Virus record (IMG/VR): IMGVR_UViG_3300030107_003333
Span: 1 to 59,210 of that record
Source of the DNA: a virus
DNA: 59,210 nt
Reading direction: 5' to 3' (one strand)
Shown here: piece after piece, positions 5,731 through 49,268 of the stretch
Layout: each line of letters starts with the position of its first letter
Position numbering within the stretch: the stretch's first letter is position 1
Notes under the pieces: model-generated
Told to the model about the DNA's origin: nothing
Databases searched by the model: none
The model's input: only the letters and a program-made list of their open reading frames with translations
Program-made: the position numbers and the translations under genes

Positions 5731-6387
5731 ATGAAAAGTAAAAAAGAAAATATGCTATACGCCTTAGGTGGAATGATAAGAGAATACATGGGTGGTGGTA
5801 GGACTGGTGAGCCTCGTGAATACGCTAAGGCTAGAAACGTGGGTGGTGCTAGCGGTATGAGGGTTCGTAAGAATTATGAACATGGTGGTCTATGGCATGA
5901 TGCTGAAGGAAATGCTATTGACCGTCAAGGAAATCCTCTTCCAAGTGCAGCAACAGATTCATCAGCTGGTGCTCCGAAAAAAACAGACCCTAAAAAGTCA
6001 CGTAAGTACTCTGCATACGATACAGGAGATAGGGGCGAAGATTTCCCTCAAATAGATATTGAAACAAAAGAGATAGAAACAGGAAGGGATAGAGTTTCAG
6101 GAGAACCTATATTTGAAACTGAATATCAATTCTTTTTAGACGGAAAACCCGTAACCTCTCAAGACGCCGCTAAATCGTATGCAATGTCTATAGAGGGGGT
6201 TGATAAAGCTCCATCCTTTAATGATTTTGTTCAGGGTTATATGAATACATATGCTGGTGAAAGAATGGGGCCAAAACATGATATGCCTCAAACAAGATCA
6301 AGAGTAAAAGCTAAAGAGAAAGTAGATGTTGAAGGCTTAATGAAAGCTCTTAAACAATACGGAGAATACAACCAGTCAGATTCATAA
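5731..6387 (+). CDS. Hypothetical protein with GG motifs (218 aa)
   Basis: The N-terminus has ALGGMI and, near residue 50, EHGGLW, echoing the K/E-x-GG motifs of other proteins in this genome. The middle is polar and disordered in appearance; the end is basic and helical. It follows the beta-rich protein after 12 bases and ends convergently, overlapping the minus-strand gene by six bases. Probably a minor virion or morphogenesis protein; no family recognised. Confidence 0.55.
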   Translation: MKSKKENMLYALGGMIREYMGGGRTGEPREYAKARNVGGASGMRVRKNYEHGGLWHDAEGNAIDRQGNPLPSAATDSSAGAPKKTDPKKSRKYSAYDTGDRGEDFPQIDIETKEIETGRDRVSGEPIFETEYQFFLDGKPVTSQDAAKSYAMSIEGVDKAPSFNDFVQGYMNTYAGERMGPKHDMPQTRSRVKAKEKVDVEGLMKALKQYGEYNQSDS

Positions 6388-6756
6388 TCTAGCTAATATT
6401 TCAATTTTAGTTTTCTCGCCTACGTTTACATTGGGTGTAAACTCAATTAAACATCCTTCCCCTGTTTTTACAGCTGTAATAGTGTATTGATCAACTATTA
6501 CATCGTTTTGAATCGCATTAATAATGTATTGCGTATCTCCCGACCTTAAGTTTATTGGGTTAAATATTGCTTTGGTGTCCCAAGGTTTTATAGCTTCTAA
6601 TGTAATTCCATCTACCACCATGTCCATTCCATACTGGAACACATCTTCTTCCCAGTTTAGTGGGGTTACGATAAAATCAACAGAGCATGCAGTTACTTGT
6701 GCGTTTACTGCAATAGTTGTAAGAGCAAAGCTTACGAGTAGGAATAAATTTTTCAT
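6382..6756 (-). CDS. Secreted small protein with signal peptide (124 aa)
   Basis: A clear signal peptide opens the protein (MKNLFLLVSFALTTIAVNA, cleavage after about residue 19, then QVTACSVDF). The mature part is short, beta-rich and has two Cys, which could form a disulphide in the periplasm. It is a lone minus-strand gene within the plus-strand arm, suggesting separate expression or acquisition. No family is recognised. A role in the host envelope, such as exclusion or lysis timing, is speculation. Confidence 0.65.
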   Translation of the reverse strand: MKNLFLLVSFALTTIAVNAQVTACSVDFIVTPLNWEEDVFQYGMDMVVDGITLEAIKPWDTKAIFNPINLRSGDTQYIINAIQNDVIVDQYTITAVKTGEGCLIEFTPNVNVGEKTKIEILARL

Positions 6757-6952: not shown

Positions 6953-7471
6953 ATGAAACTAGAAGTAATAAGATTCAACAAAGGAGTGGATTCAACTAAT
7001 GGTATACTATTCGATATAACAAACAATGAAAGAAAATTTTTATGCTATACTCTCGAAGATGAGAGCCGTGAAGAAAAAGTTTACGGAGAAACTTGTATAC
7101 CTGAAGGAGAGTATTGTATACAGTTTAGAAATGAAGGCGGATACCACGCCAAGTACTCTAAAAGATTTGCTGATGTACATATGGGAATGCTTGAAGTGTG
7201 TGACGTCCCAAATTTTAAGTATATTCTTCTTCATTGTGGTAATACTGATGAGGACACTGCGGGATGTTTATTGCTGGGTGACACGCAAGAAAACAACAAT
7301 ATCAAAACAGGCGGCTTCATCGGTAGGTCGACCAAAGCGTACCTCAGGGTCTACCCGAAAATCGCCCAAGCGCTCAAAGAAGGCGAAGAAGTGACTATTG
7401 CTTATAGAGACTTTGCTGACTGTCTAATACTTGACCCGCTAGAATTAAACAAGCTGGCAGGAGAAGCTTAA
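6953..7471 (+). CDS. DUF5675-family protein, likely lysis-related (172 aa)
   Basis: The whole length fits the DUF5675 pattern. A FLCYTLED element lies near residues 29-36, GETCIPEGEY near 44-53, and the conserved LLHCGNTDEDTAGCLLLG near 90-107, whose His and Cys recall active-site residues. DUF5675 proteins are common in phages beside lysis genes, but their chemistry is not settled. There is no signal peptide. A nuclease-fold gene follows after 10 bases. Confidence 0.7.
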   Translation: MKLEVIRFNKGVDSTNGILFDITNNERKFLCYTLEDESREEKVYGETCIPEGEYCIQFRNEGGYHAKYSKRFADVHMGMLEVCDVPNFKYILLHCGNTDEDTAGCLLLGDTQENNNIKTGGFIGRSTKAYLRVYPKIAQALKEGEEVTIAYRDFADCLILDPLELNKLAGEA

Positions 7472-10880: not shown

Positions 10881-11063
10881 ATGGCTGAATATAAATGTGA
10901 ATGCTGTGAGCATGAAGTAGAGTGTACTGGAGTCGTAATTAGAATAATCGACGGTAAGGCTACTCACGATATTAAATGCCCTTGCGGAAAGTATATGAAG
11001 TTAGCAAATCCTAAAACAGGCATTGCTAGCTTTGGAAGTGATAGATATGGTAGGGTGCGTTGA
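10881..11063 (+). CDS. Zinc-ribbon protein (60 aa)
   Basis: ATG at 10881 (MAEYKCECCEHEVEC) is preferred over the TTG nine bases earlier. Cys pairs CECC and CPCG, about 30 residues apart, form a probable zinc ribbon. It ends in TTGA shared with the start of the large terminase, so the two are translationally coupled. It may be an accessory packaging or transcription factor; no family name can be given. Confidence 0.6.
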   Translation: MAEYKCECCEHEVECTGVVIRIIDGKATHDIKCPCGKYMKLANPKTGIASFGSDRYGRVR

Positions 11064-13183
11064 GCGTTTTACTAAACATAGAAGAATATGACGAACCTGC
11101 TATCAAGATTTGTCCCAACGGTACGGAGGGTGAAATTATTGAACTCGGTGGGTTACTCATTTGCCTTCCAAAAAGGCCGAAGAAGAAAGACATTTTCGGA
11201 CATAAAGAATCAGACTCTATGCAAGTGTGGAGAAGGTTATCTATGCCGAAGGAATTGTCTCGTATTCGTTCTATGGATGAGTGGGCGGAAATGCCAAGGG
11301 AGTTCAGAGAGAGGTTTCGTCCATATATCGAGGAAGAGTTTAGGCGTAGGCGTGAGGGTTTTTGGTTTTATAACAACGGCACAGCTACATATATTACGGG
11401 GCGGCATTACATGATGCTTCAGTGGACCAAGTTAGATATTGGATACCCATACTTTCTTAACTTTCAGCGTGAAATCTTTCTACATATGGCTGCTTGCGAG
11501 GCTGATCCTCGCTGTATTGGTCAGCTTTATACTAAGTGCCGTCGTTCTGGGTACACCAATATATGTTCTTCTGTTCTTGTGGATGAAGCTACACAGGTTA
11601 AAGATAAGCTTATGGGGATACAGTCAAAGACAGGTAAGGACGCCCAAGAAAACATTTTTATGAAGAAGGTGGTTTATATGTTTAGAAACTACCCATTCTT
11701 CTTTAAACCTATACAAGACGGTACAACTAATCCACGTATGGAGCTAGCTTTTAGGGAGCCGTCAAAACGAATAACTAAAAACAATAAAACTTCTCAAACA
11801 GGAGAAGCACTTAATACTGTTATTAATTGGAAAAACACAACTAACAACGCATACGATGGTGAGAAGCTACACATATTGTATTTAGACGAAGCAGGAAAAT
11901 GGGAAAAACCAACAGACATAAGGGACGCATGGAGGATTCAGAGGACATGCTTAATAGTAGGAAGAAAAATTGTAGGAAAGGCCCTCGTAGGAAGCACAGT
12001 AAATCCAATGGACAAAGGTGGAAAAGAGTACAAGGAACTGTGGAGAGATTCAGATCCGACGGAGAGGAATGCGAATGGGAGGACTAGGACAGGTTTGTAT
12101 AGGCTGTTTATTCCAGCATATGAATCGCTAGAAGGTTTTTTTGATAAATACGGTAATCCAGTAATAGAAGACCCTTTAAAAGTTATAGATGGTTTAGATG
12201 GGGAAGATATTATTTTTGGAGCGAAAACATATTTAAAGAACGAAAGGCAAAGCTTAAAAGACGACCCTTCTGAATTAAATGAGGTAACAAGACAGTTTCC
12301 TTTTACAACTGACGAGGCTTTTAGAGATAGTATAGACGGTAGTTTGTTTAATATAGGTAGGATATATGAGCAAATACACCATAATGATGAGCTTTTTCCA
12401 AACCCTATAGTAATAGGTAATTTTGTGTGGAAGAATGGTGAAAAAGACACTGAAGTAGTTTTTAAGCCAGATGCAAAAGGTAGGTTTAAAATTGCTTGGA
12501 TGCCTCCGCCAGAGCTCAGAAATAAAAAGACATATGAAAGAGGTAAGCTTTTGCCAGCAAATGCAGAGCTAGGAGTAGGGGGAGTTGACTCCTATGATCT
12601 TGATGCTACTGTTGATGGTCGAGGATCTAAAGGAGCGCTACATCTTTATAATAAATTTCATATGGAGCACCCATCTAATATGTTTGTATTAGAGTATGCA
12701 TCCCGCCCGCCTCTAGCTAAAATATTTTATGAAGACGTTCTTATGGCTGCTGTGTTTTATGGATACTCTATTTTAATTGAAAACAATAAGTATGGTATTG
12801 CAAGGTACTTTGAATCAAGAGGTTATGATGGGTATTTAATGAATAGGCCGCCTCACCTTAATTCTTCTAGTTCTAGAGTTAATGTTAAAACTAAAGGAAT
12901 ACCTTCAAACTCTCAAGATATTATCCAAGCTCATGCTCATGCTATTGAAGCTTATATTCATAATCATGTAGGTATGCATAGAGAAACTGGTGATATTGGT
13001 AAGATGTATTTTAATGACACTTTAGAGGATTGGATTGGATTTAATATAAATAATAGAACTAAATTTGACCTTACTATAAGTTCTGGCTTAGCGCTCTTGG
13101 CTGCTCAAAAAAGTAAACCAAAAAAGAAGCAATCTAATTTTGCTGAAAAGAAATTCTTTAGGAGATATAAGCCCATATCTTAA
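11060..13183 (+). CDS. terL: Terminase large subunit (707 aa)
   Basis: This ATPase-nuclease pumps DNA into the prohead. A degenerate Walker A-like loop (KCRRSGYT, 159-166), Walker B (HILYLDEAGK, 271-280), a coupling motif (VGSTVNP, 310-316) and a C-terminal RNase H-like nuclease starting with GGVDSYDLDAT (507-517) are seen, with further acidic residues near 573 (ILIENN). The start is TTG at 11060, overlapping the upstream stop. Size and motif spacing fit the terminases of crAss-like and other Bacteroidota podoviruses. Confidence 0.85.
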   Translation: MSVLLNIEEYDEPAIKICPNGTEGEIIELGGLLICLPKRPKKKDIFGHKESDSMQVWRRLSMPKELSRIRSMDEWAEMPREFRERFRPYIEEEFRRRREGFWFYNNGTATYITGRHYMMLQWTKLDIGYPYFLNFQREIFLHMAACEADPRCIGQLYTKCRRSGYTNICSSVLVDEATQVKDKLMGIQSKTGKDAQENIFMKKVVYMFRNYPFFFKPIQDGTTNPRMELAFREPSKRITKNNKTSQTGEALNTVINWKNTTNNAYDGEKLHILYLDEAGKWEKPTDIRDAWRIQRTCLIVGRKIVGKALVGSTVNPMDKGGKEYKELWRDSDPTERNANGRTRTGLYRLFIPAYESLEGFFDKYGNPVIEDPLKVIDGLDGEDIIFGAKTYLKNERQSLKDDPSELNEVTRQFPFTTDEAFRDSIDGSLFNIGRIYEQIHHNDELFPNPIVIGNFVWKNGEKDTEVVFKPDAKGRFKIAWMPPPELRNKKTYERGKLLPANAELGVGGVDSYDLDATVDGRGSKGALHLYNKFHMEHPSNMFVLEYASRPPLAKIFYEDVLMAAVFYGYSILIENNKYGIARYFESRGYDGYLMNRPPHLNSSSSRVNVKTKGIPSNSQDIIQAHAHAIEAYIHNHVGMHRETGDIGKMYFNDTLEDWIGFNINNRTKFDLTISSGLALLAAQKSKPKKKQSNFAEKKFFRRYKPIS

Positions 13184-13198
13184 AAACGTGTTATTTAG

Positions 13199-13206
13199 TA
13201 TATTTG
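13199..13206 (+). promoter_or_regulatory. TAnnTTTG promoter before the portal gene
   Basis: TATATTTG ends 18 bases before the portal ATG at 13225 and just after the terminase stop. This places a transcription start at the head-gene cluster. An in-frame TTG overlapping the element is therefore unlikely to be the real start. Confidence 0.6.
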
Positions 13207-13224
13207 CACAAACACAATTCCCTG

Positions 13225-15690
13225 ATGTATAAAAGCGATAATAAAAGTTCAGGCAGCTTTCCAGACCCTTTAGCCCCTCAACATGTAAAAGAAAACAAAG
13301 CTTATGGACTGAAATACGCCAAAGCTATTGAATCTCAGTGGGGAAAAGTACAAGATGCAGGATCTTTATATAATAAAAGAAATAACATCTTTGAAAGAAA
13401 TAGGGATTATGCAAATGGAACTCAAGACACAAATCTATACAAGCAGATCTTAACAAACCTAGATCCTAATAGCGCTGATGGAAGCCTTGTAAATTTAGAT
13501 TATACTCCAGTTCCAATTCTCCCAAAGTTTGCTAGAATAGTAACGAATAAAATCCTTTCAAGAGAGCCGTACCCAAATTTAGAGGCAGTAGATCCTATAT
13601 CTTCTTCCGAAAAGAATAAGCAAAAACAAAGAATTAAAATTCAAGTTGAGCTTAAGGAGCAATTAATGCAGCTTAAAAAGGATACCAATGGGCTTGTTTT
13701 AGATCAAGATCCAGAGTCGTTGCCAGATACTTTAGAGGAAGCTGATATATTTCTAGACACTAATATTAAAACTGACGCTGAAATAGCTGCTCAGATAGGC
13801 ACAAATATGACTCTATCTTGGAATGATTTTAATGATGGTGTATATAGAAGGTGTGTAAATGACTTAGTTGCTTTAGGAATGTGTGTTGTTAGACGTACAA
13901 ATGATCCTAGCTATGGGATAAAGACAGATTATGTTGACCCATGTTCTTTTATACATAGTCAAACTGAAAACCCTAATTTTGATGATTTAGTTTATGCTGG
14001 ACATGTTAAAACCATAACTATTCAAGAATTAAAGCGTTTAGCTGGTGAATCTTTTACAGAAGAAGAATACAAAGAAATTGCTACTTCTGCAGCTAAATCT
14101 AAATCTCATGACACCTCTAAATTTTCAATGACTAAATATGACAATTCATTGAATAAAAATGTTTACGGGTATGATAATTATTCAGTAGAGTTATTGGACT
14201 TTGAGTTTATGTCTGTTGATTGTATGCATTTTGAAGAAAAAGAAAACAGATACGGTAACAGGAACTTCTTTTATGAAGGATTTAACTATAAAGAAAAAAC
14301 AGGTGGCGTTTTTGAGCGTAAGCCTCACAGGATGGATATAGTTACTGTCTACGGCGGTCTTTATATTTTAGGTACTAAGCATATATTTAACTACGGAATG
14401 AAAACAAATGTTCCGAGAAATATACATGATATAGGTAGAACACGTATGGGTTATTCTGTTGTTGCAACAAACTTCAGAAATATGATGCCTAAATCTATGG
14501 TTGATAGTTGTATTGGATTTGCCGATATGCTTCAGATAACCCACTTGAAAATTCAACAAGCTATAGCTAAAGCAAAGCCAGATGGGTTAATTATAGATAT
14601 TGAAGGCTTAGAGAATGTACAGCTTGGAAAGGGAGGTGAGCTTCAGCCATTAGAACTTCATGATATTTACGAACAAACTGGAGTGTTTTACTACAGGAGT
14701 AAAAACCCAGAAGGTGGTCATCAAAACCCGCCAATCAGAGAGATCGGAAATAGTATAAGAAACATTAACGAACTTATAGCTATATACAACCACTACTTAA
14801 GATTAATAAGAGATACAACAGGCATTAATGAGGCTATGGATGCTTCTACTCCTAAGGGAGATGCGTTAGTTGGTGTTCAGCAGCAAGCTATAGCAGCGGG
14901 CAATAACGCTATATATGACATCACTAATGCTGCTATGATTTTGTTCAAAAAGGTTTGTGAGGATGTTGTTAAGTGTTTGCAGATTATCCCGCCAGAGTCT
15001 GTCCTCATGGGGATATATCAAAATGCTATAGGTGAGTCTAACATGGAGGTTTTAACTTCTTTTAGCGATTTACCTATGTTTAATTTTGGTGTTTCTGTTC
15101 AGAAAGAAATGGAGGATTCTGAAAGGGCTTATCTTGAGCAAAATATCCAAATGGCTATTCAGCAACAGCAAATAGATTTAGAAGATGCTATAGCTATTAG
15201 AAACCTTAAAGATGTTAATCAAGCAGAAAGACTTCTTATTCTTCGACGTAAAAAGAGAATGGATATTGCGCAAGCTGTGGCTCGTCAAAACTCTCAACTG
15301 CAAGCTCAGCAAGCTCAGGAAGCAGCTCAAGCAGCCTCTCAAGCAAGACAGCAAGAGTTGCAAATGGAAGCTGAGTTAGAAGGACAAAAACTTCAGCTTA
15401 AATCTCAGTTAGAAGTACAAGTTGCTCAAGCTCGACATGAAATGCAAAAAGAAATAGAGATGATAAGAGCGCAGGCTACTTTAGGCTTTAAAACTGATGA
15501 CCAAGAATTTAAGGAAAAAATTGAAGTACTTAAAGAGGATAGGAAAGACTCTAGGGTTAAAAAACAATCTGCAGAACAGAGTAAGTTGATATCTCAAAGA
15601 AAAGGTCAACGTGGAGAAATAATTGAACCCATGCAGTTAGATGAACCTCAAGAATTAGATGAAACTGTTCAAAATATATTACAACAATAA
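13225..15690 (+). CDS. Portal protein (821 aa)
   Basis: The portal is the dodecameric vertex ring through which DNA enters and leaves. The protein follows the large terminase, has the right length for podoviral portals, and carries the segment LIRDTTGINEAMDASTPKGD near residue 540, of the kind found in portals of Bacteroidota phages. The last 180 residues are a Gln/Ala/Glu-rich coiled coil with basic tail. ATG at 13225 was chosen because the upstream TTG lies inside the promoter. Confidence 0.8.
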   Translation: MYKSDNKSSGSFPDPLAPQHVKENKAYGLKYAKAIESQWGKVQDAGSLYNKRNNIFERNRDYANGTQDTNLYKQILTNLDPNSADGSLVNLDYTPVPILPKFARIVTNKILSREPYPNLEAVDPISSSEKNKQKQRIKIQVELKEQLMQLKKDTNGLVLDQDPESLPDTLEEADIFLDTNIKTDAEIAAQIGTNMTLSWNDFNDGVYRRCVNDLVALGMCVVRRTNDPSYGIKTDYVDPCSFIHSQTENPNFDDLVYAGHVKTITIQELKRLAGESFTEEEYKEIATSAAKSKSHDTSKFSMTKYDNSLNKNVYGYDNYSVELLDFEFMSVDCMHFEEKENRYGNRNFFYEGFNYKEKTGGVFERKPHRMDIVTVYGGLYILGTKHIFNYGMKTNVPRNIHDIGRTRMGYSVVATNFRNMMPKSMVDSCIGFADMLQITHLKIQQAIAKAKPDGLIIDIEGLENVQLGKGGELQPLELHDIYEQTGVFYYRSKNPEGGHQNPPIREIGNSIRNINELIAIYNHYLRLIRDTTGINEAMDASTPKGDALVGVQQQAIAAGNNAIYDITNAAMILFKKVCEDVVKCLQIIPPESVLMGIYQNAIGESNMEVLTSFSDLPMFNFGVSVQKEMEDSERAYLEQNIQMAIQQQQIDLEDAIAIRNLKDVNQAERLLILRRKKRMDIAQAVARQNSQLQAQQAQEAAQAASQARQQELQMEAELEGQKLQLKSQLEVQVAQARHEMQKEIEMIRAQATLGFKTDDQEFKEKIEVLKEDRKDSRVKKQSAEQSKLISQRKGQRGEIIEPMQLDEPQELDETVQNILQQ

Positions 15691-16115: not shown

Positions 16116-17579
16116 ATGAGTGTAGACGTTACAACAACATCTGGAAATAGTGTTACTGCTACATCGACTGGTGGTACATCAGTTAGTTTTTCTTCTAGCT
16201 CAACTTCTGTTGCAGTAACGACTCCAACCTCATCTAGTATTACAGTAACAAGCAAAGGACCTAAAGGAGATACTGGGGCTACAGGTGCTACAGGGTCAAC
16301 AGGGGCGACGGGCGCTACGGGAGCTACAGCAACGGCGGGAGACGGAATAGATATTGCTGGCGGAGAAGTAAGCACTGATTTAAAATCTAATGGGGGGTTA
16401 GTTATAGAGTCTACAGAATTAGCTGTTGATTTAGGAGCATCATCTATTACGGGTACTTTAGCTGTTGGAGACGGAGGTACAGGAGCTACAACCCTTACAG
16501 ATAACGCTATTCTTACTGGTACTGGAACTAGTGCTATTACAGCTGAAGCTAATGCTAGTTATGACGGGAACGACTTTACATTAGCAAGCTCAACTTCTGC
16601 TAAACCAGTTTTAACTCTTTCGAATAGCAATACCGATGCTGTTAGTTCGGAAATTGTTTTTCAAAAAACAGCAACAGGAGCAGACAATGATGATGTTGGT
16701 AAGATAGACTTTAAGGGTGATAATGATAACAATGAGGTTACATCATTTGCCACCATTCTTGCGGAAATAGCAGATGCTAGTGATTCAGATGAGGCTGGCA
16801 GGTTGTCAATGACTGTTATGGCTAGTGACGGTAGTTTTAATCACTCACTTCCTGCTCACCAAGGTAGAAATGCATTTACTGCAACTGGCCATGGAACTAA
16901 TGATATTGTTGATGTAACTCTTGGATACGGCACTGCTTCAACAACTACGGTAGCTGGTACTCTTACCATGGGTTCGACGGCAGCAATGACTAACGCTGGT
17001 TTACTTTCTGTAGGGAATCAAACAAATATTACTGGTACAGGCGCTTTAAATGGTGGGAGTATAACTTCTGGTTTTGGCAATATAGATATAGGTTCTAGTA
17101 CGTTTGACACTACGGGCGATGTGAGCACAGGAGTAATTACCCCCACAGCTATTAAACATACTATTAGTGGTAATAACGCTGGTGATTACGGAACTGGTGC
17201 TGAAATACTATATGGCATAAGTAATGATAGCGTTACTGCTGGAGCCATATATGTTTTAAGATCTGGTGTATGGACAACAATAGATGCTGATGTTTCAAGT
17301 ATGGTTAGTCAATTAGTTGGTGTTGCAACAATAGCAGCAGGAAATGGAGACTCTTCAGACGGCATGATTATAAAAGGGAGTGTAACATTAGCTTCTGCAT
17401 ATACAGCAGGATCTGATGCTGAAGGAGCAATAGTATATGCCTCTGCGACGGCTGGAGAAGCTACACTTACAGCTCCTTCTTCTTCTGCTCAATTTGTGAG
17501 AATACTTGGATATTCCTTTAATGTAAGTAGCAAAAAAATGTTCCTTAATCCAGACAGCACGTTTGTAAAAATAGCGTAA
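16116..17579 (+). CDS. Tail-fibre-like protein with collagen-like repeat (487 aa)
   Basis: A Ser/Thr/Val-rich beta N-domain leads into a Gly-X-Y tract (GPKGDTGATGATGSTGATGA, about residues 48-67), then several hundred residues of Gly/Thr/Ala-rich beta repeats, and a C-domain with fewer repeats (about 395-487). This build, a trimeric collagen-like stalk and beta-helical shaft, is usual for receptor-binding fibres. The host specificity determinant is likely near the C-terminus. Confidence 0.7.
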   Translation: MSVDVTTTSGNSVTATSTGGTSVSFSSSSTSVAVTTPTSSSITVTSKGPKGDTGATGATGSTGATGATGATATAGDGIDIAGGEVSTDLKSNGGLVIESTELAVDLGASSITGTLAVGDGGTGATTLTDNAILTGTGTSAITAEANASYDGNDFTLASSTSAKPVLTLSNSNTDAVSSEIVFQKTATGADNDDVGKIDFKGDNDNNEVTSFATILAEIADASDSDEAGRLSMTVMASDGSFNHSLPAHQGRNAFTATGHGTNDIVDVTLGYGTASTTTVAGTLTMGSTAAMTNAGLLSVGNQTNITGTGALNGGSITSGFGNIDIGSSTFDTTGDVSTGVITPTAIKHTISGNNAGDYGTGAEILYGISNDSVTAGAIYVLRSGVWTTIDADVSSMVSQLVGVATIAAGNGDSSDGMIIKGSVTLASAYTAGSDAEGAIVYASATAGEATLTAPSSSAQFVRILGYSFNVSSKKMFLNPDSTFVKIA

Positions 17580-18142
17580 TGGGTTATATAGACGAAACAT
17601 TAGTATTTGAGTCTGATAAAGTGTATTACACAGACGATTTTGGCACAGAGCTTCAAGTAATGATGACTTGGGAAGATCCTATCATGAAAGCTTCCGCTGA
17701 TTACGTTTGTGAAGGAGGTGGAGATATATTAGAAATAGGATTTGGCATGGGTATATCTGCAGATTACATTCAAGCTAATTCTATATCGTCTCATACCATA
17801 GTAGAGAACCACCCTCAAATGATTGAAAAAGCTAAAGCTTGGGCTGCTGATAAACCTAACGTAACTATAGTAGAGGGAGATTGGTATACTGTAAAAGATT
17901 CTTTATCTACTTACGATGGAGTGTTTTATGATACTTGGGGGGATGACAATGCTTTGAAATTTGTAAGTGAAGCCCCTAATTTTACGAAATCGGGGACAAG
18001 AGTTACGTGGTGGAATAATTATACAGACACAGATGATGTTTTGTACATAAATGGAACTACGTATCAATCTATAAGTGTAAACCCAGATAGTAATATGTAT
18101 TTTCAATCTAATACATATCACCTTCCTAAAAAACAGTTTTAA
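17579..18142 (+). CDS. GAMT/Rmt2-like SAM-dependent methyltransferase (187 aa)
   Basis: The class I fold is clear: MMTWEDPIM (28-36), motif I DILEIGFGMGISADYIQ (about 49-65), acidic loop HTIVENHP, and motif II YDGVFYDTWGD (about 112-122). The set closely follows guanidinoacetate N-methyltransferase and the fungal arginine methyltransferase Rmt2, rather than DNA or RNA methylases. A guanidino-group substrate such as arginine in a fibre or host protein is inferred. It sits inside the fibre cluster, overlapping both neighbours. Confidence 0.7.
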   Translation: MGYIDETLVFESDKVYYTDDFGTELQVMMTWEDPIMKASADYVCEGGGDILEIGFGMGISADYIQANSISSHTIVENHPQMIEKAKAWAADKPNVTIVEGDWYTVKDSLSTYDGVFYDTWGDDNALKFVSEAPNFTKSGTRVTWWNNYTDTDDVLYINGTTYQSISVNPDSNMYFQSNTYHLPKKQF

Positions 18143-18873: not shown

Positions 18874-21090
18874 ATGAAAAAGATATCACTTATTTTATTT
18901 TTAATAATACCTTCTATTTTGTTTGCTCAGCCAGACGATGCAAGCTGGTTAAATGTAACGATACAAACAGATAACTATGGGGGAGAATCATCGTGGGAGA
19001 TAATAAACTTCGACGGTAATACTGTAGCTACAAATCCGCCGCTTCAGAACAATACATTAACAAACACAATGGTTTTTCTGCCTGCTGGAGACTACAGTTT
19101 TATAATGTATGATTCGTTTGGTGATGGTATATGCTGTTCCTTTGGTCAAGGTTTTTTTGGTATTACGAACACTTGCGGTTTAGAAGAGTTTAATTATGAG
19201 TTTGATTCAGCTATAGATACTATACCTTTTACATTGACACCTTGTATGCCTCTACTACTTGGCTGTATGAACGAAGCTGCAGATAATTACAATCCATGGG
19301 CCAATCAAGATGATGGTAGCTGCGAGGTTGTAGAGTGCGATTCGCTTGAAACGCTTGTGTCTATGGATTTAACTCTTGATACTTGGCCTAGTGAAACTGG
19401 TTTTACTTTAGTTGATATAGCTACTGGTCAACCTTATCACCAAGTACTACCTTTAGAATTTGATTTTGGAGATCAGCTTGTTACATACACATATGACTTT
19501 TGTGTTGCTTTAGGGTTTGAGTTAATTTTAACAGACGAGTATGGAGACGGCCTTAACGGTTCTGCTTCAGGGGGGGAAGATGGAGCTTGTGTTATAACTG
19601 CTTGCGATAGTGTTATATGGGAATTAGAGGACTTAGCATTTACGGAATTTGATGATGGAAACACAATGTACTCTGGAGCTATTTTTACAGAGCCTTGCCC
19701 GCCCGTGCCGCCCGTTGTTGGGTGTATGGATGATGACTATGTAGACTACAACCCTCTTGCCGAAGTCCAAGATACTTGCATGACATTACACACATGGGGT
19801 TGCACAGACCCAGAAGCTATGAACTATGATAGCACTGCAACAATAAACGACTTAAACGGCCCTTGCAGCATACAGATTATCTTAGAAGATGACGCTGGTG
19901 ATGGCTGGGGTATGTCTGGGATAGGTGTAATTCAAGGAGATCAACAATGGTTATTTACTGTAGGCCCTAATCAGTTTTCACAATCTTGGGATATTATGCT
20001 GGATTCTGATGAGGAGGTTGATATATATTACTTTCAAGGTGGAGGGCAACAGTCATCTGCACAAGAACTAGCTTTTCAAACATTACACAACTCTGTATAT
20101 GCTATCAATCAAGCTGGAGACACTTTACTGTCTGAAGGATCTAATCCTTTCCTAAATAACGGCCAAGGGGCTTTGCAGCCATTTAGTGCACCAAATTGGC
20201 ACACGTATAGTTTTACCCCTTATTGTGGAGACAGTTGCATCCCCTATATATATGGGTGCACAGACTCAGCAGCCTGCAACTATGACGCAGAGGCTAATAC
20301 AAATTTTGACTGTAATTACCCTGTTCAATACTATGATTGTAATAATAGCTGCGTGAATGACTCTGACGGCGATGGTGTATGTGATGAGTTAGAAGTACTA
20401 GGTTGTCAAGATCCAACCGCATTTAATTACAACGCATTGGCTACTGATGCTGGAGAGTGCATACCAGTAATATTTGGCTGCACAGACCCAACACAATTTA
20501 ATTACGATCCAGAAGCTAATACAGAAAATCAAAGCTGTATTCCTTTTATATATGGTTGCATGGACCCATTAGCTTTGAATTATGACCCTAACGCTAACAC
20601 TGATAATGAATCTTGCATTGAAGTAATAGTTGATTGCATGGACCCTACTGCAGTGAATTACAATGAGTTAGCAAACACTCCTGACAACAGTACTTGTTTG
20701 TATGATGCTGGGTGTATTGGCGAGGCGGGTGATCCATATTATTTAAATGACTCATGCTATGCTTGGATTATAGATATTGATCCGTACTGTTGTGAAGTCG
20801 CTTGGGATGGAGCTTGTGTTGAATTGTATGATTATTGTCAAGCTGGATGGCCTACTGATATATACGATATACACGATATATATAATGTATATCCTAACCC
20901 AGTTGAGAATATTTTAAACATACAAACGTCTTTAGATGTAACTACAGAAATTTATAACTCTTTTGGACAGCTCGTAGTTTCAGCAACTAGAGAAAAGCGA
21001 ATTAACCTTCAACACCTTTCTAAAGGTTTGTATCATGTTGTTATAAAAAATAACGATAGGACTTCAATTAAAAAAATAATTAAATCATGA
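18874..21090 (+). CDS. Secreted protein with type IX secretion sorting domain (738 aa)
   Basis: A signal peptide (MKKISLILFLIIPSILFA, cut before QPDD) sends it through Sec. Two or three beta domains with acidic GDG loops follow. From residue 129 there are at least seven repeats of the form GCxDPxAxNYDPxAN...SC, as in flavobacterial surface proteins, and a calcium-type DSDGDGVCD near 500. From about residue 670 the end is a type A sorting domain: NVYPNPVENIL, an IYNSFGQLV strand, then LSKGLYHVVI and a final KKIIKS. T9SS would carry it to or past the host outer membrane. It has its own promoter. Confidence 0.85.
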   Translation: MKKISLILFLIIPSILFAQPDDASWLNVTIQTDNYGGESSWEIINFDGNTVATNPPLQNNTLTNTMVFLPAGDYSFIMYDSFGDGICCSFGQGFFGITNTCGLEEFNYEFDSAIDTIPFTLTPCMPLLLGCMNEAADNYNPWANQDDGSCEVVECDSLETLVSMDLTLDTWPSETGFTLVDIATGQPYHQVLPLEFDFGDQLVTYTYDFCVALGFELILTDEYGDGLNGSASGGEDGACVITACDSVIWELEDLAFTEFDDGNTMYSGAIFTEPCPPVPPVVGCMDDDYVDYNPLAEVQDTCMTLHTWGCTDPEAMNYDSTATINDLNGPCSIQIILEDDAGDGWGMSGIGVIQGDQQWLFTVGPNQFSQSWDIMLDSDEEVDIYYFQGGGQQSSAQELAFQTLHNSVYAINQAGDTLLSEGSNPFLNNGQGALQPFSAPNWHTYSFTPYCGDSCIPYIYGCTDSAACNYDAEANTNFDCNYPVQYYDCNNSCVNDSDGDGVCDELEVLGCQDPTAFNYNALATDAGECIPVIFGCTDPTQFNYDPEANTENQSCIPFIYGCMDPLALNYDPNANTDNESCIEVIVDCMDPTAVNYNELANTPDNSTCLYDAGCIGEAGDPYYLNDSCYAWIIDIDPYCCEVAWDGACVELYDYCQAGWPTDIYDIHDIYNVYPNPVENILNIQTSLDVTTEIYNSFGQLVVSATREKRINLQHLSKGLYHVVIKNNDRTSIKKIIKS

Positions 21091-26489: not shown

Positions 26490-27905
26490 ATGGCTACTAC
26501 TGCTGCTGCGGCTGCTGGTCTAGATGGCGCTACTGCGAATCTAAGAACCACGCCCGAAACATATACAACAGTAGGTACTCTATTAGATCAGAATAAGGAT
26601 TTCGTAATCCCTGAATTAGTAGAAACTTACGGTGATCAAGGAATCACAGGATTCCTTAAATTAACTGGGGCTATCCAATCTGGTGGAACTTCTGATGAAG
26701 TTCGTTACCACGAGGTAGGAAGACGCCACAGACTTGTAACTGGTATTACAGACGGTCTTGATGGAGACCAACAGAATATTAGCGTAACTGCTGACGGTAC
26801 TGACGGTACTGCTCTAGGTCCAAACGATGTCCTTATGGATAGCGCTGACGGACGTCGTTACGTTGTTATTCTTGCTGACGGAACACCTCTTACAACTGAT
26901 GATTATACAATTGCGTCTTTAGATGGTGCAACTGCTGGAGCTAATAACTCTACTTCACGTTCTTTTATCGTATTAGGTAACTTATACGGGCAAGGAACTG
27001 AGCAGCCAGCACACTTCCTAGACACTGACGTTGTTGTTCGTCAAAACCCATTCATGATTGTTAAGGATCGTTACCAAGTAAACGGATCTCAGGCTACAAA
27101 CATTGGATGGATTAATATCGGAAACGGTGAGTATCGTTGGTTTATGTACGGTGAACAAGAAGCACGTAAGCGCTTTGAAGACCGTCGTGAGATGATGATG
27201 CTTTTTGCTGAGACTGGAAATGATAGTGACTGGACTGATGCTACGTCTGCTGCGTTTAGTAATAGCGCAAACCAAGATATCGGTACAGGTTCAGAAGGCT
27301 ATGTTTCTGCTGTTGAATCAAGAGGTATCGTAGTTTCTAACGCTAACGCTAACCCACTTGATTCTTTTGCTGAGTTTGACGATATTATTGTTGAACTTGA
27401 TAAGAATGGTGCTACTTCTGAGTACGCTATGTACGTAAACAGAAAGCAAGATTTAGCTATCGATGATATGCTTGCTCACGGTGTTTCTACTGGAACTACT
27501 GCTGGTCTAGCTGGACAGTTCGGTGCGTTTAACAACGACGCTGATATGGCTGTTAAGCTTGGATTTAAGTCGTTCACTCGTGGTGGATACACTTTCCACA
27601 AGCATGACTGGAAGCTTCTAAACGATCCAACTCTTCTTGGTGCGTCTAACTACTTACAGGGAGCTATGGTTCCAATGTCTCAAGTTGCTGATGCTCGTAC
27701 AGGTGTGAAAGCTCCTGCTCTAGCTATGTACTACAAAGAGGCTAACGGTTACAACCGTGAAATGGAGCACTGGGTAACTGGAGGTGGTGTTTTAGGACAC
27801 ACTAACAATGGAGATGCTGGTCGTGACGTTGCTACGTTCCACTACCGTTCAGAGATCGCTCTTGTGACTCGTGCTGCTAACCAACACGTTCTTATTAAAG
27901 GATAA
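26490..27905 (+). CDS. Major capsid protein, HK97-like (471 aa)
   Basis: The position after the scaffold, the length, the Ala/Thr-rich flexible N-terminus and the even codon-optimised sequence without rare codons mark the most highly made virion protein. An E-loop-like region around 190-215 and a C-terminal domain with EMEHWVTGGGVLG and FHYRSEIALVTRAANQHV can be made out. I could not identify a chemical crosslinking or protease site. The fold assignment is by context. Confidence 0.75.
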   Translation: MATTAAAAAGLDGATANLRTTPETYTTVGTLLDQNKDFVIPELVETYGDQGITGFLKLTGAIQSGGTSDEVRYHEVGRRHRLVTGITDGLDGDQQNISVTADGTDGTALGPNDVLMDSADGRRYVVILADGTPLTTDDYTIASLDGATAGANNSTSRSFIVLGNLYGQGTEQPAHFLDTDVVVRQNPFMIVKDRYQVNGSQATNIGWINIGNGEYRWFMYGEQEARKRFEDRREMMMLFAETGNDSDWTDATSAAFSNSANQDIGTGSEGYVSAVESRGIVVSNANANPLDSFAEFDDIIVELDKNGATSEYAMYVNRKQDLAIDDMLAHGVSTGTTAGLAGQFGAFNNDADMAVKLGFKSFTRGGYTFHKHDWKLLNDPTLLGASNYLQGAMVPMSQVADARTGVKAPALAMYYKEANGYNREMEHWVTGGGVLGHTNNGDAGRDVATFHYRSEIALVTRAANQHVLIKG

Positions 27906-48500: not shown

Positions 48501-48838
48501 TTACAGACACATCTATAGAACTAGTTGGACAGATTAGTGGATTAAAGCCATATACAGTAGATGTAGCAGAAGCTTTTGGATATAAGATGGCGAGATATAA
48601 GGTTAGGATAGCTAATGCTCGTAAACTTAAATACGAGGATGTAAATGAAGCCAACAAAGCCCTACAAGGAATTTATCAAGAGATATATGAGGATGCAGAA
48701 GCTGCTCAGGCGTTAGGAGTAACCTTTAAAGATTTAAGAGAAGTAATGATGCAATGGGGTGGGTTAGGAAAACAAACCTCAAAAGACATATTATTAAACA
48801 GATATAGACCCTTAACAATAGAAAGAAGAAATGAGTAA
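42548..48838 (+). CDS. Giant internal protein with LPD38-like end (2096 aa)
   Basis: A helical protein of unusual size. The region near residues 1690-1900 (DDLYQAEDDFFKIVAFEIER, then QTYPSYDRVPTAVRAPSQIW and FVSFVAESYRVSYNTL) resembles the LPD38 polyvalent-protein domain, and residues about 1820-1850 form a hydrophobic Gly/Ala stretch. The N-terminal half holds a predicted membrane-interacting part (about 480-560). Such giants are ejected or inner-core proteins of podoviruses. Functional detail is unknown. Confidence 0.6.
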   Translation: MNGVTLQNPFQTSQDPQDKRQYDFDQSLEALLAQNHSPDKIVKIMGSAGFDPYDVASSINKRYDDQRRQMFNDHKQLQDQLKAEKEAYDNILKKKDIALEQDGEQSVFGLDLSLSPDDQAKAYYDGLSNDQKWDQFGILSKSLALDKIKTDVLPTLTPPEPVNPPLTSELAVDNNLAALNLIDNTALEVYSDYTAASKLKTAIANNDTKEIISLINYFNAQKRLTEFPTEEASSVWDYMQNLGWSVVSPVTSYVLPERDQDPEPFSQDFLKNLDFEVDKILKESSNAQSNVMNMINDFNYRNNIPMQYNPSSEMDYNIFLRNSVNRSLTRAEEEEASLNEFIYSELTEDERKDPVKRKEAEDYYYGTIPDTFFGNLLAADRARGTWGEWWDTWQNNFGLALNPIVAETWGEDMGEVMKNELLEIKRQQDLREYDKKVQLARDFDITPEQLKMPIDQRFSETINGNISMGDFFATTTANTAEIMSDALISSAEFMIPYIGPAVMGLDIYSQTYADVVANQPHISPQEAMMTSAPKAVFEVLINKLMFAKGIGSVGALKDVAANLGAKETIKQVGKRAAVERGLLGNAFTKYLLPEAMEEGIVSITNQTIDAVADVAQGRAVRDLNTYEVSDAFWAGMVGAVGPASVATFTSNLGHTRTMDDRLKTVEGINDLKSQISSETNPDIKSNKVALLHDEIKKMKILATDEAAYYSALNPEEVRSIMSINQELSQTRDILKRGRYFTDEVVEESDIEGLENRMQDLYKEKANIENEAIRRAEAEMRAQERSNIVNNEDAAKRNETRTGTKADIEKAAEEASERERTIDDDIEDARRGDVEAQEKLKKYGIEWEYTPVYRFISESEVEALKKGKTIKGKNPKFGADVTIDPEGEGAGATTTEYRVTFKEDGFDNKKTGSRVRMKNKQDGWVSEGYSMDDVAKIEKKSADGTWETVYEADAPTTDAIDKPQQKTSYNTILESEVSKSALKSILLSIRKSYPNSYAVDLLSDVIKEKPIDDFNYDYLNDENLTYQSVIDMLVSEEIFNTTREAVDKLSIIGKGIVMKDIAGKSVDKATAQEQTEVKPTETVEKDYDTVIKDYMNSVEDLELFYEELIVRDSPKMESRSQMSVVINGYEDFMDLWAAITGNGKLPSAMQNIYFIKDDKRYNVNPPSPKLDEDGNVIDMPLKKTLRDYLLQKAAEEELTTPKEDVSEEDVELPKELTEEIDQGIFEKYTGENPFLKGLNLAERVRKKYFRSQKLLPKTVSRLLELEGGALAAHFKDVESSFKDFWKMYDAYKGDKEALLEDYDAALRGDVEALDRLPEEFAIHLKKVRNQIDGLSQEAIDVGVWDLSTEEGRKTARTVKDKLGKYLTRSFEIFDNDNWANEVSDKVVVAAKNLIRQQIKDAAKLEYESDPALKEKFETFEDYLTDRVDGLVNELLTKETAKGYIKGKALLGKGSDISKKLKDIPAEIRALMGEYADPMKNYAKSILKLASAVEGTKTMQKVREAGLGKWLFENPTGQFVSQIAAEGSETMRPLNGLYTTPEIAEAIKEVPQTKSALVELYIKHVSSRVKWAKTIGSVATHMKNILGNLGFMWANGHTDISQMGIAFKTIKNDIQNRGDEALRERLKEYIQLGLVNQNVAIREINDMFSSENFENAMMDNLNSQRTSKKAKQAKGVVKGIKRQLLDTKSVILPAKFEQMLDDLYQAEDDFFKIVAFEIERNRYADALFGKPYEKLTPEEKKALNEYIVDKIVKQTYPSYDRVPTAVRAPSQIWLGNFVSFVAESYRVSYNTLSLSAQEMASDNPKLKKIGMKRLAGALSYVSAKSGLVAGFGTLAGVGAMGIMGAFTDDEEEKRKRKATKNFVAPWSKDSDLLYYRVGDGKFSYIDLSASDPYGQISRVVNATVGSGEGVESMIDGLVVALSPFVDPDIGTRRLMNIIYNQDDYGKQIYNPEDPMVDQIADITAAFYEVIELGSVTSMRKIWNAEGFTDTSIELVGQISGLKPYTVDVAEAFGYKMARYKVRIANARKLKYEDVNEANKALQGIYQEIYEDAEAAQALGVTFKDLREVMMQWGGLGKQTSKDILLNRYRPLTIERRNE

Positions 48839-49268
48839 AAAGAAAATAAAAGACACCAAGCTTGGATCTTGGTTAGCAGAAAAAGCGCCGCAGGTGCTTG
48901 GCGTAGTAGGTGATTTATTGCCAGACAGCGGAGGCTTAGGTATAGTAAAAAACCTTATTGACACTGATGATAGTGTTGACTCTGAGGAGGCTCAACGTGT
49001 AATCGACGCAGAGGTTAGATTCCAAGAAAACGTCACAGAGCGTTGGAAAGCTGATATGGGTAGTGATGTTAAACTAGCTAAGTTAATACGCCCAGTGACG
49101 CTTATATGCCTTATGGGGATGTTTATGATAACTATGTTTATAGACAGCATGGATAACGTAGCATTTAACGTAAAAGATTCTTACGTTTCTTTGCTTGAAT
49201 TGCTAATGCTTACTGCCTTTGGCGCATACTTTGCTGGTAGAACTATAGAGAAAAAAGCAAGTAAATAA
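48831..49268 (+). CDS. Holin-like protein of the 3TM/GTA-holin type (145 aa)
   Basis: An amphipathic N-half ends in RWKADMGSDVKLAKLIRPVT, a motif of the holin family PF11351, followed by membrane helices at about 99-117 (VTLICLMGMFMITMFIDSM) and 125-142 (LLELLMLTAFGAYFAG). The expected role is timed inner-membrane permeabilisation at lysis. The start lies eight bases inside the giant gene. PF11351-type holins are usually near the terminase or tail end, which suits this place. Confidence 0.7.
   Translation: MSKKKIKDTKLGSWLAEKAPQVLGVVGDLLPDSGGLGIVKNLIDTDDSVDSEEAQRVIDAEVRFQENVTERWKADMGSDVKLAKLIRPVTLICLMGMFMITMFIDSMDNVAFNVKDSYVSLLELLMLTAFGAYFAGRTIEKKASK

Follow-up and report, generated by a model that had tools for sequence, protein, structure and literature searches.

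A predicted type IX secretion cargo encoded by uncultured phages within a conserved four-gene envelope cassette

Why would a phage encode a protein addressed to the type IX secretion system (T9SS) of its host? The question is raised by one gene of the IMG/VR virus record IMGVR_UViG_3300030107_003333, of which the whole stretch analysed here, 59,210 bases, is called the window. A first, sequence-only reading of this gene had described a signal peptide, a C-terminal type A sorting domain and repeats of a flavobacterial surface type. It had regarded such a cargo as a host trait, found as a promoter-equipped gene inside the virion cluster, and had proposed a possible role outside the cell. The features on which the following analysis relies are collected in Table 1.

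Table 1. Positions in the window of the cargo gene, its neighbours in the cassette and the landmark phage genes.
Feature	Positions	Strand	Remarks
Terminase, phrog_6681	11060-13183		PHROGs match
Portal, phrog_6547	13204-15690		PHROGs match
T9SS type A cargo	18874..21090	+	738 aa, ATG start, 37 Cys
Signal peptide, residues 1-18	18874..18927	+	read by eye; mature start predicted at invariant Gln19
Repeat region, residues ~454-615	20233..20718	+	shared with large proteins of bacterial genomes in the same order as MAG G002
Type A sorting domain, residues 672-737	20887..21084	+	seven-strand Ig-like sandwich; sequence and fold
Small ORF, 65 aa	21087..21284	+	top match in 14 fetched loci
Small ORF, 49 aa	21287..21436	+	stop overlaps barrel ATG; relatives in 19/63 dereplicated loci
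Outer-membrane beta-barrel, phage-type, 356 aa	21436..22506	+	signal peptide; model, Foldseek, viral matches
Inner-membrane coiled-coil protein, 94 aa	22506..22790	+	one N-terminal transmembrane segment and a coiled-coil-like stretch, by eye
Exported thioredoxin-like protein, 112 aa	22790..23128	+	hydrophobic leader, cis-Pro motif, no CxxC
Capsid-region protein, phrog_13704	26490-27905		PHROGs match
Holin, phrog_3427	48831..49268	+	apart from the cassette, downstream of a large structural gene

The motifs quoted in the sequence-only reading are all in place, with PNPV at residues 674-677, followed by IYNSFGQLV, LSKGLYHVVI and the terminal KKIIKS. The profile check that it had proposed turned out positive, PF18962 matching residues 672-736 (E=3.5e-14, 53.3 bits for a cut-off of 27) and TIGR04183 giving E=2.2e-12 and 46.8 bits (cut-off 23). 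PF18962 was also matched individually by 51 of the 54 aligned cargo homologues, and a profile of the cargo family retrieved from the PDB the solved T9SS substrate domains 8glk_D and 8glj_D, together with gingipain R2. AlphaFold2 models the cargo C-terminus as a sandwich of seven strands, with a pLDDT of about 87-93; this is the fold with which type A sorting domains have been described (PMC4804311, PMC12618676). Foldseek matched it to T9SS-bound NucA (8glk_D; TM-score 0.77 by target, 2.2 Å, 30% identity) as well as to the RgpB sorting domain, with 7pq4 among the matches. The adhesin-like and lectin-like matches of the whole cargo were set aside for their low TM-score, the sorting-domain match alone being usable.

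In Bacteroidota, the so-called Q-rule predicts a glutamine directly after signal peptide cleavage (PMC10653852). The signal peptide of the cargo, read from its sequence, is in line with this rule. Gln19 at the predicted cleavage site is invariant in the alignment, and a signal peptide end of the A/Q type is seen in 53/54 cargo and 43/43 barrel sequences, as compared with 45% of background ORFs. The GC-x-D-P-x-A-x-N-Y repeats are real as well, and extend over residues ~309-600. Every sequence and fold test used agrees on a phage gene encoding a T9SS type A cargo, and the predicted export of its product through the host T9SS is very probable. Being such a cargo, the protein would have an extracellular role.

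Could the gene nevertheless be host DNA joined to a phage contig? A scan with the cargo protein alone found relatives encoded by 167 IMG/VR stretches, of which the best 79 loci were kept, at identities of 40 to 84%. In many of these independent contigs the flanks are those of the window, with the portal and 15690-like genes before the cargo and 23128-, 24006-, 25364- and capsid-like genes after it. The GC content of the cargo gene (0.389) is also near that of the window (0.372). A chimera with host DNA is refuted by these shared phage neighbours and this composition. The suggested search of related phages has thus shown conservation in a matching phage context, and the view of a host trait picked up by a single phage has to give way to that of a cargo widespread in uncultured phages.

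The cargo gene does not stand alone. Across the compared neighbourhoods it is found together with the genes for the barrel, the coiled-coil protein and the thioredoxin-like protein, which form with it a four-gene envelope cassette. To avoid circularity, an independent search was performed from the barrel. It brought up relatives in more than 580 stretches, and among the 83 loci examined a sorting-domain cargo is present in 82, directly upstream of the barrel in 80. All four genes were likewise recovered in 63/77 loci when the search started from the thioredoxin-like protein and in 56/73 when it started from the coiled-coil protein, the misses lying mostly near contig ends. The phages concerned are diverse, their terminases being 76-88%, 50-52% or 22-29% identical to that of the window, or not detectable, and their records reaching 113 kb. 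Two gene orders are observed, with the cargo either first or last, and near-complete relatives with an empty portal-capsid slot carry the cassette elsewhere in the genome. Given such divergent terminases, the two orders and the varied positions, the genes are kept together by more than whole-genome descent. It is highly likely, if slightly less so than the export of the cargo, that the four products make up one functional unit.

Two elements of the initial description need revision in this context. The location inside the virion cluster holds for the window, where the cassette lies between portal and capsid genes, but not for the relatives, in which other genome positions are occupied. Our own idea that close relatives either have or lack the whole cassette in the portal-capsid slot proved wrong for the same reason, since the near-complete records with an empty slot carry it elsewhere, the others being fragments. 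The gene is not a promoter-equipped, stand-alone unit either, as it belongs to the cassette. A promoter-like TAnnTTTG site does precede its ATG directly in the window, but such a site lies within 60 nt of the cargo in only 6/54 relatives, and a conserved promoter of its own was therefore dropped.

Cultured phages look very different. The cassette is absent from every phage isolate searched, and among these isolates the barrel and the coiled-coil protein have no homologues. The thioredoxin-like protein has only general thioredoxin matches there, in Streptomyces phages, and the cargo only short repeat-level matches in INPHARED, in cyanophages. One such cargo-like repeat is found in Synechococcus phage S-CAM3 (KU686198, 36833-36976), within a protein annotated as virion structural; the host group of this cyanophage is not known for T9SS. 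Judged by the terminase, the isolates closest to the window are MW202828 (spring), at 48% identity, and the Flavobacterium elemo phages, at 42%. Six related isolates, searched whole, lack both the sorting domain and the barrel.

The modelled barrel (pLDDT 71.6) has almost only porins and other outer-membrane barrels as top Foldseek matches in the PDB. Their TM-scores are low, and the claim is therefore limited to the fold class: at this level, and as far as the model goes, the protein is an outer-membrane beta-barrel. Its best viral match has an E-value of 2e-21. A barrel gene behind a cargo gene recalls the Flavobacterium type B cargo genes, which often have a dedicated PorP/SprF shuttle barrel directly downstream (PMC12618676), sometimes followed by a gene for a cell-wall-linking protein. 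The sorting domain of the phage cargo, however, is of type A, which normally relies on the shared PorV, and the barrel is neither a PorP/SprF nor a PorV protein. PF11751 and the NCBIfam PorP models are unmatched in 43 members, with an hhalign probability of 5.6%. For PorV, NF033709 is unmatched and hhalign, run against three PorV-family sequences only, gives 0.3%. On these model searches and profile comparisons, both shuttles were rejected as identities of the barrel.

The thioredoxin-like protein matches thioredoxins by profile, at the fold level, but the CxxC active site is missing in all 25 aligned members. The coiled-coil protein is laid out by eye like an i-spanin, with flanking charges that weakly favour an N-inside topology and with weak PHROGs matches. 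No lipobox cysteine is conserved in the barrel or thioredoxin-like alignments, as an o-spanin lipoprotein would have, and no spanin appears among the Pfam and PHROGs hits of the cassette. The PADLOC defence models are also without a match, and a known defence or exclusion family was dropped as a candidate on this ground.

The cassette is also associated with a holin. The phrog_3427 holin gene is, among real genes, the only other frequent neighbour (33/63 dereplicated loci), and many relatives have it immediately ahead of the cassette. Several relatives show the succession of a large structural gene, holin, cargo, barrel, coiled-coil and thioredoxin-like genes, in which holin and cargo overlap by 4 nt. 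The phrog_3427 family is present in 18/20 cassette records as against 0/5 related isolates devoid of the cassette. The gene at 6953-7471 of the window, encoding a DUF5675 protein (PF18925, 90 bits), may be a lysis gene too; locus L159 has a homologue immediately after the barrel gene, and L048 has one a short distance after the cassette.

The exceptions to the four-gene rule are informative. Four loci (L294, L307, L299 and L315) have a divergent barrel gene together with coiled-coil and thioredoxin-like genes, but no cargo. The rest of their records, which include two large ones of 65.7 and 84.9 kb, is devoid of a sorting domain as well. In L294 and L307 the holin adjoins this reduced set. That the two large records combine holin, barrel, coiled-coil and thioredoxin-like genes without a cargo implies that the cargo is dispensable for the job of the core. 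The core thus consists of the latter three proteins, often with the holin, the cargo being very common but not obligatory. Conversely, cargo genes occur as tandem pairs in L041, L042, L044, L057, L187 and L202. In three of these the second cargo, with a CARDB-like match, lies behind the first and ahead of the barrel (L041:12064-13446, L042:12064-13626, L044:12025-13257).

How does this assembly compare with known systems? The cargo resembles the T9SS type A cargo proteins of bacteria, such as Flavobacterium NucA and the Porphyromonas gingipains, in its Sec signal peptide and its C-terminal seven-strand Ig-like sorting domain. It differs from them in being encoded by a phage and followed by a barrel of its own and two further envelope genes, and in having no known enzyme domain. 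Phage proteins sent to the host outer membrane are also familiar, as exemplified by Llp of T5, which shields progeny from receptor on debris, and Lom of lambda. These are a lipoprotein and a single small barrel that use no host secretion system, whereas the cargo of the phage cassette is directed to T9SS. Two-component spanins (Rz/Rz1) share with the cassette the holin linkage and the pairing of a small inner-membrane protein, the tail of which looks coiled-coil-like in the cassette as read by eye, with an outer-membrane partner. In the cassette, however, this partner is a barrel instead of a lipoprotein, a thioredoxin-like protein and a surface cargo are added, and there is no sequence match. 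Finally, type A sorting domains have been reported on three variable Cryophage genes, encoding an endoglucanase, a glycoside hydrolase 39 and a PA14-domain protein, the secretion of which through the host system was suggested, possibly for superinfection exclusion (Bellas et al. 2020, PMC7468147). Phage-encoded T9SS cargo has thus been noted once before and is not new. The difference lies in a conserved, non-enzymatic cargo within a fixed and mostly holin-linked cassette of many phages, as opposed to variable genes. We found no known counterpart of this surrounding module, nor any description of the four-gene cassette, in a survey of papers outside subscription journals and preprints.

The holin link, together with one predicted product per envelope layer, favours a late surface-remodelling module, by which Bacteroidota phages would exploit the T9SS of their host to cover the dying cell with a coat, and so aid release or block re-adsorption. 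We put this reading at roughly 0.4. The cargo, as the surface-exported member of the module, would be synthesized late, exported by Sec and then recognized by the host T9SS through its type A sorting domain. T9SS depends on the proton motive force, which the holin collapses, and the cargo would therefore have to reach the exterior of the infected cell first. The barrel would most likely help to keep or position the cargo at the outer membrane, direct contact between the two having about even odds. The coiled-coil protein in the inner membrane and the thioredoxin-like protein in the periplasm would complete the assembly. The repeat-rich ectodomain would then most likely coat the surface late, allowing a clean exit of the progeny without re-adsorption to the dying cell or to cell debris, and also keeping rival phages off. 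The sequences show the gene, its export signal, the linkage of the four genes and the association with the holin; the late timing, the location at the surface, physical contact among the four products and the shielding role are inferred from them. That release or such a shield against re-adsorption is the main role is itself tentative, somewhat short of an even chance. If it holds, phages recruit the most distinctive secretion system of their host for the end of infection, and the state of T9SS would be linked in a testable manner to phage yield. The cassette would also provide the first concrete candidates for the handling of the Bacteroidota outer membrane by phages, be it for lysis, release or exclusion. 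What can be said in any case is that a T9SS-directed protein is near-constant in a conserved, holin-linked module of four genes, which occurs in hundreds of marine viral contigs whose several backbones look unrelated.

Why a coat should need a coiled coil in the inner membrane, or a thioredoxin-like protein, is not obvious. The main rival assigns the cassette to lysis, as its outer-membrane stage and a functional stand-in for spanins: once the holin has acted, coiled-coil protein and barrel, bridged by the thioredoxin-like protein, would rupture the outer membrane or bring about its fusion, with the cargo assisting from outside. The direct linkage to phrog_3427, the distribution of one predicted product per envelope layer, the i-spanin-like layout of the 94-aa protein as read by eye and the persistence of core and holin without cargo speak for it. 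Spanins could not be identified in 91 of 677 surveyed phages (PMC6139136). This lysis reading is nevertheless unlikely, since the cassette has neither an o-spanin-like lipoprotein nor a Pfam or PHROGs spanin match, related Bacteroidota phages lyse without it, and the surface display of a varying ectodomain is left unexplained. Sequence cannot separate it from the shield. A broader formulation, somewhat doubtful too and marginally less probable, sees in the cassette a new kind of trans-envelope phage machine with parts at the surface, to which the host T9SS would deliver the cargo, and in the outer membrane, periplasm and inner membrane. Together with the holin, this machine would either replace spanins or relay a surface signal, for example superinfection, to the timing of lysis.

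Other readings place the action of the cargo earlier, in the particle, or outside the phage cycle altogether. Cargo and barrel could change the cell surface soon after infection and block other phages by exclusion or receptor masking, as proposed for the Cryophage cargo (PMC7468147); the surface-directed signal, the host-like repeats and the variation of the ectodomain would suit this role. It is rather improbable, given that the place among late genes or beside the holin argues for late expression and that neither a conserved promoter of its own nor a PADLOC match was found. If the portal-capsid location in the window were meaningful, cargo or barrel might belong to the virion, for instance as an adhesive decoration, and the Synechococcus phage repeat in a protein annotated as virion structural would fit. 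This is very improbable: the genome position is not conserved, and signal peptide and sorting domain direct the cargo out of the cytoplasm, where virions assemble. Just as improbable is a moron: the phage would have captured an adhesin-like host gene a single time, and would carry it by accident or to the benefit of the host without using it in its own cycle. The repeats are indeed common to the cargo and bacterial proteins, and other phage T9SS cargo genes are variable accessory genes (PMC7468147), but the four-gene linkage is near-constant over many phages and backbones, and cellular counterparts are scarce, as detailed below.

A search of 196 genomes belonging to the same order as the Flavobacteriales MAG G002 gave strong cellular matches to the cargo in the repeat region only, at ~454-615, and the proteins concerned are hundreds to thousands of residues long. 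In the same genomes the N-terminal part of the cargo has a strong match only on a phage-like MAG contig that itself bears the cassette. For the barrel, 84,980 species genomes yielded matches on no more than three MAG contigs. SprA, PorV and PorP family genes are present in two of the three MAGs with cassette contigs, the bins of which may be wrong, one of the contigs sitting in a Nitrosopelagicus bin; all three may be mis-binned phage contigs. MAG JAAXIF010000025 (L159; genome G001) has two contigs with terminases ~51% identical to that of the window, perhaps from two related phages or proviruses.

Variation is unevenly distributed within the cassette. Mean pairwise identity is 64% for the barrel, 73% for the coiled-coil protein and 57% for the thioredoxin-like protein. 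In the cargo it amounts to 55% for the body, 43% for the N-terminal part and 37%, the lowest value, for the sorting domain, and the ectodomain varies through gain and replacement of domains. Over 79 dereplicated cassettes, the distance between sorting domains follows that between barrels (rho 0.64) better than that between the bodies of the same proteins (rho 0.20), with a bootstrap difference of 0.34-0.53. The nine cassettes with the cargo last give 0.77 and 0.63, a weak contrast. These values are suggestive of ectodomains that can be swapped while the anchor stays the same. The sorting domain adjoins the barrel gene, however, and recombination through physical linkage explains the co-variation of sorting domain and barrel equally well.

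The cargo proteins of L069 and L411 end in DLLGRP...LLLYIYDDGSVKKK instead of a PNP-type sorting domain, and PF18962 misses this ending. As a similar ending recurs in L411, the C-terminus of L069 may represent a variant sorting domain and not a degenerate one.

Three further genes of the window deserve mention. On the minus strand, opposite to its neighbours, 6382-6756 is a 124-aa ORF with a clear signal peptide ending in AQ and without a family match, possibly another exported phage protein. Amid structural genes, 17579-18142 encodes a methyltransferase-like protein (PF13649, E about 1e-6). Just upstream of the cargo, the product of 16116-17579, probably a fibre, contains a short collagen-like stretch (GPKGDTGATGATG...).
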